From Heliocidaris erythrogramma (lineage: Eukaryota; Echinodermata; Echinoidea; Camarodonta; Echinometridae), in NCBI GenBank assembly GCA_025617745.1, contig CM046864.1, forward strand, positions 23,663,152 through 23,727,151: a stretch of 64,000 bases of DNA, read 5' to 3'. The notes beneath the pieces were generated by a model. The model did no database searches. It was given only the letters and a program-made list of their open reading frames with translations, and was not told the DNA's origin. Both the position numbers and the translations under genes were made by a program. This document shows, piece by piece, positions 6,970-61,231 of this stretch. Positions within the stretch are counted from its first letter, which is position 1. The number at the start of each line of letters is the position of its first letter.

Positions 6970-7929
6970 CAGTGCGAGTCAGACAAAAATGTTACACTTT
7001 TTAAAATGATTATATTACAAATATGACAGAAATATCACAATTCTTGCACCCAAGTTAGATACAATTACTCTTCCAGTTATTAGTAGATACCACATTTGTG
7101 GAGAATCAGTAATGAATTTACTGGATAGGAATCAATTAATGTGTCTGGGTGAAAACCCATTTGCGCCAACGTCAACAACGTTTTGCCTGATTTGGATTTC
7201 ACTGCACAACGAGCAAGAAAGCCTGTTGTAATGATAATTGAATCATTACATTAGGTGAACCTGTGGAATGGCCCCCAAGATCTCCAGACTTAATACCCAT
7301 GGACTTCTTCGTCTGGGGGTTTCTCAATTCCAAGGTGTACAGCAACCCACCTGCAGACCTGGATGACTTGCAGCAACGAATCGTCAGAGAAGCAACCAAT
7401 CTGCAAGAAGACAGGGAGACATTTCGTAGGGCCATGACAGCGATGCTCCATCGAGCTCAGAAATACATCGAGAGAAACGGACGCCATGTGGAAGATTGAA
7501 AGCTATGTCCAAGTGCCCTAAATGACTATGAAAGGGGACTTTTCAGTGAAGATCACTGAATGTTATGATTTCTAGCTCTATTTACTTACTCATTTATTTA
7601 TTGGTTCTCATATTATTTGTAGTGATTGAACATATGCATAAACTTCACGCTCACTGATTGTGTGAATGATGTTGTCTCTGTTTCAGCAGGCTTGGCTCAA
7701 ACTTGGCTCAAACGAGTTTTGACTTTTCAAACATTTCAAACAAGTTTGACATTTCAAACAATGGCTGTTGTGCACTCATCCGTAACAACAACATTGAAGC
7801 AAATGTTACCAAACAACAAATGAGTATAATTATACTGTATCCATACATGCTAAAAATACTCTGTTTATCCCATATTTTTAAAACAATACTCAATTTTAAA
7901 AGTGTAACATTGTTTTCTGACTCACACTA
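6970..7929 (+). mobile_element. Tc1/mariner-superfamily DNA transposon remnant with both ends
   Basis: The left end CAGTGCGAGTCAGAC... and the inverted right end TAGTGTGAGTCAGAA... match for about 40 bases with a few differences. Each is flanked by TA (6968-6969, 7930-7931), the target of the IS630-Tc1-mariner superfamily. Inside, 7252-7500 encodes the transposase C-terminus. At about 960 bp the copy is shorter than a full mariner (around 1.3 kb), so part of the 5' transposase is lost. Confidence 0.8.
7252..7500 (+). pseudogene. mariner-type transposase C-terminal fragment
   Basis: The frame reads LGEPVEWPPRSPDLIPMDFF, then VWGFLNSKVY, a helical tail and a stop. The WPPRSPDLxPxDFFxWG block is the hallmark around the last catalytic Asp of a mariner-like DDE transposase, and SPDL still carries it. 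Upstream (about 7141-7250) related coding sequence can be sensed but is interrupted by stops, and the N-terminal DNA-binding region and first two catalytic acids are absent. It could not make an active enzyme. Confidence 0.75.
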
Positions 7930-8157: not shown

Positions 8158-8946
8158 TCATTCTAGTCCAAGACCTTTCGCAGAATAATGTGCTGTCCCG
8201 AGCAGGCTTACTTTCTGTATGGTTTCAGGCGATACGTCGACTCCAAGATCAGCCAGGAAGCTCGTATGTCTTGTCACTGTTCCCAAGGCCCCTATCACTA
8301 TTTGTATGACTCTCATCTTCACCTTCCATATCCTTTTTAGTTCCCATGCCAGGTCATTGTACTTTTGCATCTTTTCTTCCTCCCTACGCCACTCCCTGCA
8401 TTCTCCAGGAATTGCAATGTCCATGATGAGACATTCCTTGTCCTTCTTTTCGGTTAGAATGATGTCTGGTCTCCTAGCCTGTATAACCTTGTCTGTTTGG
8501 ATGTTGAAGTCCCACAGGAGTTATACATCTTCATTTTCCATCACGGGTTCCGCCCTGTGTTCGTACCATTTGGCTGCATGCGGAAGTTCATACTTCTTCG
8601 CCAGACCCCAGTGTACAGCCACTCTAACATGCCTTCCCTTGTACTCTGTCCGTGCCATTTTACTGCATTCACTCACAAGATGCGTTACCGTTTCATCTTT
8701 GCTATGGCACATTCTGCACGATGTTGATGTTTCCTGTATCTCATTTCTTGCTTTCCTGTAGTTTGTTCTCAGTGCCTGGTCCTGAGCATTAAATAACAGA
8801 CATTCAGTCTCCCTTTTCAGGCTTCCTCTTTTCAACCTTTGCCAACTCTCATGTTGTCCTTGCATCACCTTTCCTTTCCATCCTTTAAGTCTCCCATTTC
8901 TCCGATCGGCCTTGAGCTGTTTTGCTGTCTTTGTTTTTGTTATATC
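8158..8946 (-). pseudogene. R2-like non-LTR retrotransposon, C-terminal zinc-finger and endonuclease region, one stop
   Basis: One minus-strand frame runs from about 8946 to 8158 with a single in-frame TAA at 8523-8521. Upstream of it is a CCHC-like finger (CRMCHSKDETVTHLVSECSK) after the conserved LKRETECLLFNAQDQALRTN block. After the stop come LLWDFNIQTDKVIQARRPDI and ECLIMDIAIPGE, matching the RPD...D core of the restriction-like endonuclease of R2-type elements, then VIGALGTV and a normal-looking C-terminus. The RT itself is missing (5' truncation near 8946, next to AT-rich DNA). This type is common in invertebrates and often annotated as an R2 Pol-like protein. Confidence 0.7.
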
Positions 8947-15742: not shown

Positions 15743-17148
15743 GCAATTGTGACCCTCCACCACAAAACGACCAATAAGTCGCAATGGGAGTTTTAGAGTA
15801 AACAGCTGAAAAAGGTGATTTGGGGTGGAAATTTTTATTTTAACTTTTTTGTATTTTCTGAAAGTTCATATATTAATCTACCATCTGACAAAATTTCAGG
15901 TTAAAATACCTTGTTGAAATATGTTTTTACTCTCATTCAAAATGATCATGTTTTCCTGGACATTCAAATCTGAGTGTCAACTTGCTGGGATTGTACTTCA
16001 CATCGCTTTTCTGGTATAGCTTAAAAACTATGCACTGTCTGATATTCAAAATCTAAAGAAACATAGAAATATATCTATTCTGAAGGTATGGAAAGTTTCA
16101 ACCCAATCCAATTAGTACTTCACAGTGTATGCTAGGGAGTTTTGACTCAACCTTTTGTGCGACAAACAAAAGGACACAGATTAGGCGCTTTTAAACGGTC
16201 ACTCTTCTTTAGAGCCCGTTTTCTCTATTGTTTTGGTCATTAGCCTGTCTGACACGTTGACATTCTCATTGTAATTTAAAAGGGTTTGCTTAGTACATAC
16301 AAGACAAGTTATATATCATTTTAAAGCTTAGAATCTAAAGCCCCTATCACACCAAACTCCACGACTGCTACGACCGTCCCGACAACGCCGATTCTATATT
16401 TTTTGAAACATTTGTATGAGTCGGGGTAGAATCGTGTAAAAATACCCGAATCCCGGTTAAAAAATTATACATTCCCGTTGCTGCCACGACTCTCCCCGAT
16501 TGTGCCACGACTGATTCCCGACAGTCTCGATCCAGCCATGTACCAGCCACGACAGCACCCCGATTATACCCACGACTCTCACGACTGAGTCCCGACAGTA
16601 CCCGTTTGTGCCACGTTCTCGCCAAGACAGCGCCACGATCTATCCGATTGCGCCACGACTGAGCCACGCCACAGCCCCGATCTATCACCTTCTCTACCAC
16701 GTCCGCGCCAAGACCTATAAATACAGCCGATTTGCAAGCAGACCTCACTTTCATTTTGACTGGGCCACGACCAATCCGACAGCACCACGACTGAGCCAAG
16801 ACTGTGCCCCGACTATCCCGACCGCGCCACGTCCTCACGACGTTATAGCCACGATTTCTTAGAATCGTGAGAGTTCCCGATTATTAAGCTCCGACCTAAA
16901 AAGTCGTGACAGCCCTCCCGACCGTTCCCGACCCTCACGAACATGCCACGACTAACCCCGATCACGCCACGACCTTCCCGACTTGGCCACGACTTTTCAC
17001 CCGATTTTCCATATTTTTGAGTCGGGACTGTCGTGGCACGGTCGGGAAGCCCGGTGTGATAGTACAGTAAGCTTTCAAACTGTGTTGAAATTTAAAAAAC
17101 CCAAATTTCCGACTTATTGGTCGTTTTGTGGTGGAGGGTCACAATTGC
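15743..17148. mobile_element. 1.4-kb inverted-repeat element (outer), 38-bp perfect ends
   Basis: GCAATTGTGACCCTCCACCA and the next 18 bases (15743-15780) are exactly the reverse complement of 17111-17148. Left and right ends abut CAATTG, which may be the target duplication or part of the ends. Its interior is AT-rich noncoding DNA and carries a second inverted-repeat element at 16344-17062. The end sequence resembles a repeat I remember as abundant in echinoids; no transposase is present. Confidence 0.75.
16344..17062. mobile_element. 719-bp nested inverted-repeat element packed with CCACGAC/CCCGAC motifs
   Basis: Ends CTATCACACC (16344-16353) and GGTGTGATAG (17053-17062) are inverted; just inside, CGACCGTCCCGAC and GTCGGGACTGTCG continue the symmetry. 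The interior has dozens of degenerate GCCACGACT, CCCGACA and CCCCGAT words spaced about 8-12 bases apart, nearly all in one orientation, far more G+C rich than the host DNA. Minus-strand frames through it (16368-16838) read repetitive Arg/Ser/Trp/Val words and are unlikely to be a gene. It sits inside the outer element, so it probably inserted later. Confidence 0.7.
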
Positions 17149-20720: not shown

Positions 20721-20979
20721 TTACATGTCTTCGAATGTCTCATTTTCAAGGTCATCGAGCATCGCGCGGATAAGGAGCAACTTCAGTTCTTTTGTTCTCA
20801 GTTCCTCGACCTCTTGCTCCCGTGTGTCGAGAAGAGCCTGTGTGTCTTCATCCAACCCCTGCCAGCCGTTAGCGGGCGCCCTATCACCGTAGATTTGTTC
20901 GTCCTTGAGTTCTGGTTGATCTTCGGTTCTTAGCTCCTTTTCCCAATCGCCAGTTCCATCCGAAACGTCACCTTCCGTC
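20721..20979 (-). CDS. coding exon 3 of the peptide precursor (acidic C-terminal region)
   Basis: It begins after a clean TTTCATTTTTACAG acceptor (AG at 20981-20980) and runs 259 nt to TAA at 20723-20721. It encodes residues 59-143, rich in Glu and Asp, with a Leu/Glu-rich segment (about 104-138) likely to be helical. It has few basic pairs, so it is probably a spacer or sorting region rather than a source of more peptides. The frame also stays open upstream into the GA-rich intron, which is not coding. Confidence 0.78.
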
Positions 20980-22956
20980 CTGTAAAAATGAAAATGAGAG
21001 CGAGACAGTGAAAGACGGCGAGGGGAAGTTGGGAAATAAAAAGGATAGAGAGAGAGAGAGAGGGGGGGGGGGGGGGGGGTATGGGGCGGAGGGTTACTAG
21101 TATCATAGGAATAGTGAAGAAATTGAGAACGGGAGAGAGAGAGACGGGATTGGATAATGTATAGAGAGGAATGGGAAAAGAGAGAGGGGTACGCACACAT
21201 CGAGAAATGGAGAGAGAGAGAGAGCGAGAGAGAGAAAGAAAGAGAGAGAAGGGAGTGATTGGAAGTGTGTTGGGGTGTGTGTATGTAATGTAATAGAGGA
21301 GGAGATTGCGCTTACCTTTTAAGGATTTCATCAAATAGTCTTTTTGTAATACCAATATTACTGTGCGGGCAGTTAGGACCTTTAAAAAGACCGCTGTAAA
21401 AAAAAAAGAAGAAGAAGATAATAAAAAATAACGTATAATCAATACCCTCAAGGTCCTCTTACTGAAATAAATTTTCATGTAACATAATGTTAATGACAAG
21501 AATTATTAACAAGAACACTTTCTACATTAGCGACGAAAAAGAAATCTGCAAGTTCTGAATCCATATCAAGTAATATAAGACCTGGATTATCATTGTATGA
21601 ATTCAACACTAATGTAGACCCCAAAAAGAGAGAAAGTTATCATTTTTTGGTTCAAATATACTAACAATTTGCATTTCCTTTCCATTATTACAAAGAGAGC
21701 ACATTGCTTAGCTTGATTTGACACCTGTAACGAATATTTTCCTACTAATTTCGTACTGTGATATTGTATGGGGTTTCTGTCATCAACACTTATTACACCG
21801 CATACTTCTCTTACAAAAGAGAGCCATTCGTATAATCTGTCACACACCATTTATAAGTCCTAGAAGACCACTCTGTTTTTTAAATTGAATGTTCTCCCAA
21901 TTTCATTATTACACGATTTCCAGCTATGTATTGTTATGTATTCATACTATTATAACTTACTTCCAGATGGTATTCGTAGATATAATACTAGGATCTCAAC
22001 AGACAATCGTGTTATATATATTATGGTCGTTCTTCCTTTTCAAAAAATATTTGGAACAAACTACCTCTAAAAAATTAAGCAGTGTACGACATTGAACAGC
22101 TTTAAGCATAGTTTAAAATCTTATCTTATGCAGAAACTTTGAATTTAATTTCATTTCGCCTTTTGTTATGTTTGATGAAACCGTTATTGCACTATACATT
22201 AATTTTAATTTATAAGTTTTCTATTTTGTACATGGATCATCTATTTATAAGTTTTTCAGAACTTCTTGATGATCCAGCCACTTCATAGTTTCCTTAACAA
22301 TGTTCTTTGGTGTTATTGTCTTTCCTTTGTGAAAAAAAATAAATAAAAAATGTTTTGTTGTTTCCTTTGCCTTTGTATGTATTTTTATGACAGTGGTGAA
22401 TAAATTCAATTAAATTCAATTCAAATTCAATTTTAACGGCAACTGTATTGTGTTTTTGCAATGGCCTATTTTGCAGTGATTTTGTTTCAAAAGTTTGGGG
22501 CCTCTAGTATCGGAAGCAGCCTTAGTATATATAAAAAAAATGGGTATCTTATTTTAAAGACAAAATTAATATCAACCCTAGGACCTTTTATCAAAATTAC
22601 TGGAACTATTCAATAAAATAAGCAACCAAATTATTTCCGGCAGTGACTTGAAAAAAGAGATTGATTTTATTCAGACAACTTGAAAAAAGAGCTTGTATTT
22701 ATATAGTATAGTTACTTTAGTTATCGAAGTGATTTGTACGCGACGATGAGCTTGATATTCAGCGCTCTATAAATCGTTGGATTAACTCAACACACTTAAA
22801 CATGGCTTAAAGTGAGGCGGCTGCCTGGAATACGGGCTTAGGGAAGAAAATAAATACTTACATGCATTGTTTGGGTCTAGGTCTGCTTTCACATATTTGA
22901 CAGCAATGCAGCAGTATGCATATAACGGAGAAAGACGCCCAGAACTTTAAATCCAT
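20721..22956 (-). CDS. secreted peptide-hormone/neuropeptide precursor, three coding exons, complete
   Basis: Coding parts on the minus strand are 22956-22862, 21393-21316 and 20979-20721, together 432 nt or 143 residues plus TAA. Seen: all four splice ends obey GT/AG, pyrimidine-rich tracts precede both internal acceptors, and the reading phase is kept at both junctions (AT|C, AG|G). Residues 1-24 form a classic signal peptide: start MDLK, hydrophobic FWASFSVICILLHCC, then QICES. After it comes RPRPKQ, then C31-IGLFKGPN-C40, PHSNIGIT, Lys-Arg at 49-50, LFDEIL and Lys-Arg at 57-58. The rest (59-143) is acidic and ends in a Glu/Leu-rich probable helix and FEDM. Known: peptide precursors are cut at dibasic sites and short two-Cys loops form one disulfide. 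Inference: the main product is a cyclic peptide from about residues 23-48, possibly with pyroglutamate at Q30. C-x8-C with Pro two before the second Cys and a place right after the signal peptide recall elevenin; MCH also has C-x8-C. Neither assignment is secure. Confidence 0.8.
20980..21315 (-). other. intron 2 of the peptide precursor gene, with (GA)n and poly-G
   Basis: A 336-bp GT-AG intron. On the plus strand it holds (GA)n at 21046-21061, an 18-base G run at 21062-21079 and a second GA-rich block near 21205-21250. On the transcribed strand these are C- and CT-rich and add to the pyrimidine content ahead of exon 3. Confidence 0.7.
21316..21393 (-). CDS. coding exon 2 of the peptide precursor (second Cys and dibasic sites)
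   Basis: This 78-nt symmetrical exon follows a CTTCTTCTTC(T)nACAG acceptor and ends in AAAAG|GTAAGC. It encodes GLFKGPNCPHSNIGITKR and LFDEILK; the first base completes the Ile codon from exon 1 and the last two bases plus the first of exon 3 give Arg58. The other two frames contain stops or break the phase. Skipping it would keep the frame but delete the second loop cysteine. Confidence 0.8.
21394..22861 (-). other. intron 1 of the peptide precursor gene, containing a LINE fragment
   Basis: A 1,468-bp GT-AG intron between the signal-peptide exon and exon 2. Much of it (about 21.6-22.43 kb) is the 3' end of a decayed non-LTR retrotransposon in the opposite orientation, so the insertion does not disturb the coding parts. 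A short stretch near 22735-22790 contains AGCGCTCTATAAAT, resembling the 3' ends of SINE/LINE repeats. Confidence 0.65.
21600..22433 (+). mobile_element. non-LTR retrotransposon 3' end (RT C-terminal region and tail), degenerate
   Basis: Read with frameshifts, the plus strand gives typical C-terminal pieces of a CR1/jockey-like ORF2: YCDIVWG near 21754, then LLQKRAIRIICHTPFISP, NLLPDGIRRYNTR and finally LNSFKHSLKSYLM before a stop near 22140. About 290 bp of AT-rich 3' UTR follow and end in ATTCAA-type repeats (22400-22433), as expected of a 3' tail. No catalytic part is present, so this is a 5'-truncated dead copy. It lies in an intron of the peptide gene on the opposite strand. Confidence 0.7.
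22862..22956 (-). CDS. coding exon 1 of the peptide precursor (signal peptide)
   Basis: ATG at 22956-22954 lies in a good start context (A at -3, G at +4). The exon encodes the 24-residue signal peptide and RPRPKQC, and ends TGCAT with two bases of a split Ile codon, followed by a strong GTAAGT donor at 22861. Thirteen bases upstream of the ATG is TTTTTGCAG (AG at 22970-22969) after a long CT-rich stretch and a TCTTAAC branch-like motif. The transcript therefore probably starts in an upstream noncoding exon that I could not find. Confidence 0.8.
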
Positions 22957-22980
22957 CTTTCAGAGTACCTGCAAAAATTT

Positions 22981-39931: not shown

Positions 39932-40899
39932 TTCTTTTCGTATATCCATATATTCATTCCATTATTTCCTCTCCCCATCCCCTCCTTTCTTGATATCTGT
40001 TAGGCCTGCATTTAAGAAAAGAAATACAGTCTATAACATGGACATGATGTTTCCTTCTCAACAGCAATCCCCCAAAAACAGAGAAAAAAGAAACAATACC
40101 AACAAGAACTGAAATAAATAACCGCCAAATAAAATAAATAAAGTTACTGGTATGGCCTAACAATATCAACATACTGAAATCAAGCTAAAATGTAAATGTA
40201 CATAAATGTGGGCAAATATTTGGAGAATATTCTCAGTATGAAAAGGGTACTGGAATAAATTAGAGAATCTCTTGATGAAAACATCTTACTGTTTCGTGGC
40301 AAAAATACGAGAGTAGTTATCAACATTCAATACATTAAAATAACAAGGTTAAGAATTACATTTCTCGTATAAGTAAGAGGCGTTGTATATTTAAGTAATA
40401 CTAATCTGCTGTTTTATGCTTTGTTTGTACCGGGAAAATACCCCCGAAAGCACTTATAAAATTAGATTCTTTGCACTAAACCTGTCACGTTATGATTGAA
40501 AACATAAAACTGTTTCGTTTATATTCCTTTACGATTTGACATGAATAAATCAAACTGCATTTTATTAATGACGGTTGTGAGTTGTGGTACGCGGGGGGGG
40601 GGGGGGGGGCACTATTCGACTTTTATTCATATTTCCTTTGAAATCATGATAATTTTATTAAATAGAGAACATCACTTCGCCAGCCAACCCGGCTTCTTAT
40701 TAGGAACATACCATGCAAGTGGAGCGTGACAAAAACGTAGCAAATTCGAATGCATGGGCACATTTCGCAACATGGGTTTAAAATTATGATTTTACAGCCC
40801 ACACGGCCCATGCCCTATTTCAAACAAGTTTTTTATGCACACATATTCACATTTATCGGCACGAGCATACGAGACCCGCTTCAGAAGACAAATTTGAAA
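39932..40899. other. no gene recognised; poly-G run
   Basis: AT-rich DNA with a 20-base G run at about 40590-40609. Confidence 0.45.
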
Positions 40900-41035
40900 T
40901 ACTGGGTAAGTAGCGTAGTAAGTAGGGTAGTAATACTGGGTAAGTAGCGTAGTAAGTAGCGTAGTAATACTGGGTAAGTAGCGTAGTAAGTAGCGTAGTA
41001 ATACTGGGTAAGTAGCGTAGTAAGTAGCGGAGTAA
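40900..41035. repeat. 34-bp minisatellite, four copies
   Basis: The unit ACTGGGTAAGTAGCGTAGTA plus AGTAGCGTAGTAAT repeats four times with one or two substitutions per copy. The unit is not a multiple of three, so the minus frames across it shift and repeat. Confidence 0.9.
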
Positions 41036-42264
41036 TACTTTATATATTCCATGCATCCATGCATCCCCCTTTATATTCTTATTCGGAGAAGCGATGTCAC
41101 TACAACCATAGCTATTCCAACTGTATAAGCAACGGCAATACAAATAAAATATACACAAAGGGTATACAAATTGCTTGAAAGAAGGTGCTCTGGTATAGGT
41201 AGGTCAACAGTGGCATGGAATAAAACTTTAGCGAGATGAATAACGTTGAGAAACATTATACGGAATTTGAGAGGAATTCAGGTGTTCATGTTTAAAAAAA
41301 AAAAAAAAACAATTAAAAATAGATTTAAAAAAAAATGAAAGGTTACCTCTTTAAAAAAAAAAAATAAATAAATAAACTATGTATTTAACGTTTTCTTAGA
41401 AATACAATTGTCGGTTAGTTTCGCATATCTAGAACAATTTCAAAATCAAAAGTTCCGGGGCCCAATTTTGACAAGTGTTGGCACTAATGACTTTCTTTAA
41501 CATTACATGTAAACTAGGATGACAAAAAAACAAAGGCAGAGCTCATTATTGTTTTTTGATGAATTACTAAAAAGTATTGTTACTGTACAAAAACAAGTTA
41601 TTTCAAATAAACAAAACTAAGGAAAATAAAATAAAGGGTAGTTATTTTTCCTAAAAACAGATTTCACAAACTGCATTTTTCAGTACCATACTAAGTTAAA
41701 TGGCCTTTAAAACGTAGACAGGAACGCTCTAACTTATATGCAGACACGCGGTTCACCCACACACACACACAATTATTGCTCATACACTGTTGCACAGACT
41801 GTACAAAAATGCATGAAGGTCAATTCTTCTGTTGTCTTGTTCTGGTTATAAAAGCCACAACAAAAAGTTAAATTTACTATTTTAGATAATGTATTTCTTG
41901 CATGACCGGTTTACCAAAATGAAAGAATGGATGTAGAAAAAAATGCATTCGCCCGGCATCCCGTGAGATTCAGTGCAGGCCCTAGGTAAAGCATTTTTTT
42001 AATATCAGAAATCAATCAGTGTGTGGGTCTGCAGTGTATTAAGCCGGAAGTCAGAAATCGACATACATGTACGCAACTTAATGTTTACCTAAGTTGTGTT
42101 TATTTTCATAAATAAACCAAGATGAATGTGATTGCGTCTTCTATATTCCTGTGCCTAAATTTAATTAAGTTCATGGTTGAAACTGTTCTTAAAATATCAT
42201 GATAATCAGAATTAAAAAAAAAACAACCTACATCTACATGCTACATGTAATTGACTTATTTTGC
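41036..42264. other. AT-rich DNA, no gene recognised
   Basis: A-rich runs at 41295-41310 and 41352-41365; no coding or RNA feature supported. Confidence 0.45.
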
Positions 42265-61037: not shown

Positions 61038-61231
61038 GCATGCACCCTGATGATAATCATAAAAGGTGAGGGGGAAACAAAATCGTGGAAAGCAGGTAAG
61101 TCAAAAGAGAGAGAAGAAGAAAGAAGAAAGAAAAGCATGCACCCTGATGATAATTATAAAAAGGTGAGGGGGAAACAAAATCCTGGAAAGCAGGAAAGTC
61201 AAAAGAGAGAGAAGGAGAAAAGAGAGAAAGG
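61038..61231. repeat. tandem duplication of a 97-bp unit
   Basis: GCATGCACCCTGATGATAAT starts at 61038 and 61135; both copies run through GGTGAGGGGGAAACAAAATC and GTCAAAAGAGAGAGAAG. Both strands stay open here, but only because the DNA is purine-rich. Confidence 0.85.

Follow-up and report, generated by a model that had tools for sequence, protein, structure and literature searches.

The sea urchin Heliocidaris erythrogramma carries, within the 64-kb stretch of DNA analysed here (the window), a three-exon gene for a secreted precursor of hormone type. The gene is real, and homology is the decisive evidence. We consider it probable that this is a prohormone gene, whose predicted product, cut out at Lys-Arg, is a non-amidated 24-residue peptide with a disulphide ring. 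The gene appears to belong to a family for which we found no name, within a known kind of precursor. Short hormone genes split by introns are easily missed, and the ring peptide, if it is a hormone, is a candidate ligand for orphan echinoderm receptors.

Gene structure and splicing

Three exons on the minus strand (22956–22862, 21393–21316 and 20979–20721) give a stop-free product of 143 residues, which reads MDLKFWASFSVICILLHCCQICES-RPRPKQCIGLFKGPNCPHSNIGIT-KR-LFDEIL-KR-TEGD...ETFEDM. The initial annotation had proposed these same exons and this product, and they do join without a frame break. The features of the locus are as follows.

22957..22968, minus strand: possible 5′ untranslated start of exon 1, with the acceptor-like TTTTTGCAG before 22968
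22862..22956, minus strand: coding exon 1 (95 nt), with the start codon, residues 1–31 and two bases of codon 32
22885..22956, minus strand: predicted signal peptide, residues 1–24 (MDLKFWASFSVICILLHCCQICES), from hydropathy only
21394..22861, minus strand: intron 1, phase 2, in the codon following the first ring cysteine
21316..21393, minus strand: coding exon 2 (78 nt), with the remainder of codon 32, residues 33–57 and two bases of codon 58
22862–22884 and 21345..21393, minus strand: predicted mature peptide RPRPKQCIGLFKGPNCPHSNIGIT, residues 25–48, from translation
20980..21315, minus strand: intron 2, phase 2
20721..20979, minus strand: coding exon 3 (259 nt), with the last base of codon 58, residues 59–143 and the stop codon TAA; encodes the acidic tail
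20742..20849, minus strand: conserved tail helix, residues 102–137, predicted from the AlphaFold2 model of L. pictus P0001
20491..20496, minus strand: nearest polyadenylation-like hexamer, ATTAAA, 224 nt past the stop codon, by consensus match only

Exon 1 encodes the signal peptide (residues 1–24) and the initial part of the ring peptide with its first cysteine, and the second ring cysteine is in exon 2, as are the two Lys-Arg sites apart from the final base of the second, which lies in exon 3. The codon split by the first junction is that of residue 32, Ile. Both introns are in phase 2, which bears out the agreement of junction phases noted in the initial annotation. The splice signals are strong, as had also been claimed: on the minus strand of the window, and with a rough generic splice matrix, the donors at 21316 and 22862 rank 5 and 26 of 3420, and the acceptors at 21393 and 20979 rank 5 and 14 of 3257. 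An in-frame stop lies upstream of the start codon, at 22962. The acceptor-like TTTTTGCAG (6.3 bits, rank 112 of 3257) ends 12 nt upstream of the start codon and suggests that there may be a non-coding upstream exon.

Both strands of the window were scanned for three-exon models of at least 130 amino acids with a hydrophobic leader, using score thresholds close to the model's own values and picked after the model was known; the sole such model was the 143-residue precursor. The same scan of 100 dinucleotide shuffles yielded none, each shuffle being scanned on one strand only as against two real strands; shuffling also breaks pyrimidine tracts, and the last shuffle had 3 acceptors above threshold where the two real strands have 8 and 15. 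The precursor had been described as the only convincing gene in 64 kb. This stands among three-exon models of the same type; for the window at large it goes further than our Pfam check, which covered 10 open frames from a set of 94 with low bias and at least 75 amino acids and brought up one frame resembling a reverse transcriptase remnant.

Homologues and gene copy number

In a search space of about 5.8 billion proteins, the precursor matched LOC129268659 of Lytechinus pictus, an ‘uncharacterized protein’ also of 143 amino acids (E 9.8e-63), the two being 69% identical across 100% of the query. The two proteins align end to end with zero gaps. When the L. pictus protein was compared to the window by tblastn, each exon was matched separately (exon 1, E 9.6e-14; exon 2, E 3.2e-6; exon 3, E 2.5e-39), the three matches being collinear on the minus strand and exons 1 and 2 matching L. 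pictus residues 1–32 and 33–58 respectively. An accidental joining of exons is already refuted, and we regard a chance join or a pseudogene as vanishingly improbable, given an ungapped full-length relative at this level of significance, a reading frame that is nowhere broken, and 0 of 100 one-strand shuffles giving a comparable model.

The L. pictus protein is the one full-length relative found in the protein searches. Two more relatives consist of exon-3 sequence only, P0002 (81 amino acids) and P0003 (93 amino acids). P0003 is more diverged, being 51% identical across the 61% of the query that it covers; it retains the core of the tail and the start of exon 3. Its alignment begins at the Arg-Thr junction, as exon 3 does in H. 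erythrogramma, which suggests that the intron occupies an equal position in this more distant relative. We note that P0003 sits on a 24-kb contig, and the upstream exons may be there. Wider protein searches with two alignments, taken up to E 10, returned nothing beyond the three relatives (3 of 485 and 3 of 1082 candidates).

The L. pictus protein was also searched against the genome, 26 contigs totalling 1,064,227,859 bases, again up to E 10. No second copy of the gene was found: the three matches are the three exons. Exon 2 alone scored E 0.65 genome-wide, so that this search might not have picked up a paralogue of the ring exon that had diverged. At the DNA level, window positions 20900–21500 gave 52 matches in the genome, comprising the locus itself and 51 others, all 51 of which fall within query bases 139–388, corresponding to the repeat-rich intron 2.

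Pfam contained no significant family for the precursor, and the alignment gave one weak match (E 0.28, in 1 of 4 members). Sequence searches of the PDB produced weak matches only, to APOBEC3G-type proteins (E 0.46 and 1.2) and UPF2 (E 3.4), and in a second search to APOBEC3G-type proteins (E 0.17 and 0.51). Rfam gave no match in the window at gathering thresholds. We found no paper that mentions LOC129268659, which may be listed under another name in supplementary material.

Organisation of the precursor

The precursor has the layout of a secreted protein, as the initial annotation had recognised, and this layout is kept in L. pictus, with the leader identified by hydropathy only. The maximum 15-residue mean hydropathy in the leader is 2.0, from residue 5, and the position of the signal cleavage site is a guess. 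The ring occupies residues 31–40 of 143 and has the sequence CIGLFKGPNC in H. erythrogramma and CMGLIKQKGC in L. pictus, C-x8-C in both. Both full-length sequences have Lys-Arg at 49–50 and 57–58, with a six-residue linker, LFDEIL, in between, and the second Lys-Arg is followed by an acidic tail of 85 residues. The C-x8-C loop, the two Lys-Arg sites and the acidic tail had all been picked out initially, and all are present here and retained in L. pictus. Loss of the loop in related species had been named as grounds for rejecting the gene; it is kept in the single relative that spans the region (1 of 1).

The predicted peptide ends IGIT-Lys-Arg in H. erythrogramma and LS-Lys-Arg in L. pictus. 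Neither has a glycine before Lys-Arg, and therefore amidation is not expected. The net charge of the predicted peptide is +4 and +6, and that of the tail –18 and –20, in H. erythrogramma and L. pictus respectively. A basic peptide with an acidic tail is a usual layout for a prohormone.

We propose that the signal peptide would route the precursor to the secretory pathway, and that a proprotein convertase would cleave it at Lys-Arg 49–50 (and 57–58). Cleavage would free non-amidated RPRPKQCIGLFKGPNCPHSNIGIT, in which one disulphide would close a ten-residue ring, together with the six-residue linker. The remaining 85-residue acidic polypeptide, with its long helix, may be a folding or granule-sorting segment, or may be co-released. 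As well as the signal and convertase cleavages, the disulphide and the role of the tail, we infer neuronal expression and a receptor.

The structure was predicted by AlphaFold2 for the L. pictus sequence P0001. The model, made from 3 sequences, is of poor quality as a whole, with a mean pLDDT of 54.3 and a pTM of 0.25, and its only confident part is the tail helix, a single helix covering residues 102–137 (pLDDT by block 75, 85, 81 and 66). This helical region has many invariant positions across the four aligned sequences.

Conservation along the precursor

The segments of the precursor differ in their conservation between H. erythrogramma and L. pictus. Identity is 17/24 in the leader (residues 1–24), 8/10 in the segment running from the first Lys-Arg to the second, and 16/31 in residues 59–89. 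The most conserved segment is the C-terminal 54 residues (90–143), with 47/54 identical (87%), and the least conserved is the ring peptide itself (25–48), with 11/24 identical (46%). Both cysteines of the ring peptide are kept, and the two urchin peptides share the pattern RPxPxxCxGLxKxxxCxxxNIG.

Conservation of the tail over the peptide is the reverse of what is described for the elevenin precursors of molluscs and annelids, in which, according to PMC10175484, the peptide is the sole highly conserved portion. An inverted pattern of this kind is unusual, and it is testable. That the ring diverges and the tail is conserved is our main ground for questioning whether the ring peptide is the only active product.

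Comparison with known peptide families

Elevenin (L11), known from molluscs, annelids, arthropods and nematodes, resembles the urchin peptide in being C-x8-C and non-amidated. Two cysteines with eight residues between them are described as common to all elevenins (PMC10175484), and elevenins as not amidated (PMC5627052). In PMC10175484, Aplysia elevenin shares with the urchin precursor an Arg-Pro start (RPRIDCTRFVFAPACRGVSA) and a peptide placed directly behind the signal peptide, and the Aplysia precursor, at 151 amino acids, is of similar length to the urchin one at 143. The residues of Aplysia elevenin tested there are I4, D5, F11, P13, R16, G17 and V18. Unlike elevenin, the urchin peptide does not have I4, D5, F11, R16, G17 or V18; it is also longer after the second cysteine, and its precursor conserves the tail and not the peptide. 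Counted by hand on a cysteine-anchored alignment, 1/7 of these residues is present in H. erythrogramma and 0/7 in L. pictus, and we have therefore not assigned the urchin gene to elevenin: the architecture fits, and key residues are missing.

The bombesin-type precursors of echinoderms (ArBN and its relatives) are similar to the urchin precursor in that the peptide adjoins the signal peptide and is split by the first intron (PMC12002301). The same source describes amidated peptides ending in the consensus RIFGPxx-amide, and genes with three coding introns of which the first is in phase 1. By contrast, the urchin gene has two coding introns, both in phase 2, and its peptide is non-amidated and has no RIFGPxx end. 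The bombesin type is thus ruled out by the end of the peptide and by the number and phase of the introns.

In the np25/CCHamide-like precursors known from starfish, brittle stars and sea cucumber, the signal peptide is likewise followed by a peptide with two cysteines, and there is a dibasic site (PMC5627052, PMC4772807 and PMC6586643). These peptides are predicted to be amidated; starfish Arn25 has an amidation glycine, with four residues separating the two cysteines (PMC4772807), and sea cucumber Ajn25 also has an amidation glycine (PMC6586643). This family is ruled out by the urchin peptide's C-x8-C spacing and absence of an amidation glycine, and it is not among the three relatives found. 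Echinoderm MCH-type precursors share with the urchin one the presence of one two-cysteine peptide per precursor. Their peptide lies at the C-terminus of the precursor, and its cysteines are spaced two residues further apart than those of vertebrate MCH (PMC4772807). The MCH type is ruled out by the position of the urchin ring, at residues 31–40 of 143 and not at the C-terminus.

Alternative interpretations

The prohormone reading is favoured because the cysteines, their C-x8-C spacing and both Lys-Arg sites persist though the peptide otherwise diverges. It is weakened by the two further relatives in which the tail alone was found, which leave one relative spanning the ring. We hold it to be unlikely, while still giving it real weight, that the main product is instead the acidic polypeptide at the C-terminus, which includes the 36-residue helix, the ring peptide being secondary. 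Such a polypeptide might be secreted and act as a helical factor, or might assist processing or sorting in the way that 7B2 and proSAAS do. The identity of 87% in residues 90–143 as against 46% in the peptide, the many invariant positions in the four aligned sequences and the confident prediction of a single helix at 102–137 all argue in this direction. However, it would be strange for a dispensable peptide to keep its two cysteines and both Lys-Arg sites, as this one does in L. pictus, and the tail has no significant family match, a search with it returning the same three relatives only. The gene might also encode a secreted, cleaved protein that does not signal, such as a defence peptide or a structural or matrix component. 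We give this little credence: the basic cysteine-bearing segment does change faster than the acidic tail, which is a pattern seen in host-defence propeptides too, but two Lys-Arg sites bounding short segments, and the finding of no second copy, fit hormone precursors better.

It is improbable, in our assessment, that the gene is the echinoid orthologue of elevenin, and thereby the missing deuterostome ligand of elevenin-type receptors. It would then be the first such ligand from a deuterostome, strongly diverged outside C-x8-C, and its receptor would be either an echinoid elevenin-type receptor or a bombesin-related orphan (for example a relative of starfish BNR2-11). This is suggested by three features that Aplysia elevenin shares, namely the C-x8-C ring, the Arg-Pro start and a peptide placed close to the signal peptide, and by the lack of amidation, as reported for elevenins (PMC5627052). 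PMC10175484 gives no elevenin precursor as known in deuterostomes, and describes elevenin-like receptors predicted in Saccoglossus and Branchiostoma. In starfish, ArBN failed to activate BNR2 and BNR3, two of the bombesin-receptor-related proteins tested, and the significance and ligands of BNR2-11 are left open in PMC12002301. Against orthology, the conserved residues number 1/7 here (P13) and 0/7 in L. pictus, compared to 3/7 in an accepted elevenin from Pinctata, counted by hand on the same alignment; G17 and R16, which PMC10175484 ranks as most important, are both absent. Among the titles of the matches listed for elevenin literature on echinoderms, sea urchins and deuterostomes, and for elevenin literature from 2024 onwards, none names an echinoid elevenin or the urchin precursor, which may be listed in supplementary material.

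Other features of the window

On the minus strand, the open frame at 8524–8961 matches zf-RVT, a zinc-binding family of reverse transcriptases, in Pfam (E 5.5e-6), its 27.4 bits being just below the family cut-off of 27.5, and is probably the remnant of a non-LTR retrotransposon. An open frame on the plus strand at 7242–7496 gave no match in Pfam; it resembles the C-terminal region of a DDE transposase. Midway through intron 1 (21394–22861), the sequence looks by eye like a degraded retroelement end. In two tandem arrays, a 74-bp unit is repeated about 2.4 times at 16483–16663 (67% matches) and a 34-bp unit 4.2 times at 40898–41039 (98% matches). At 61038–61230, within a purine-rich stretch, a 98-bp unit is present twice, the copies matching at 92%.
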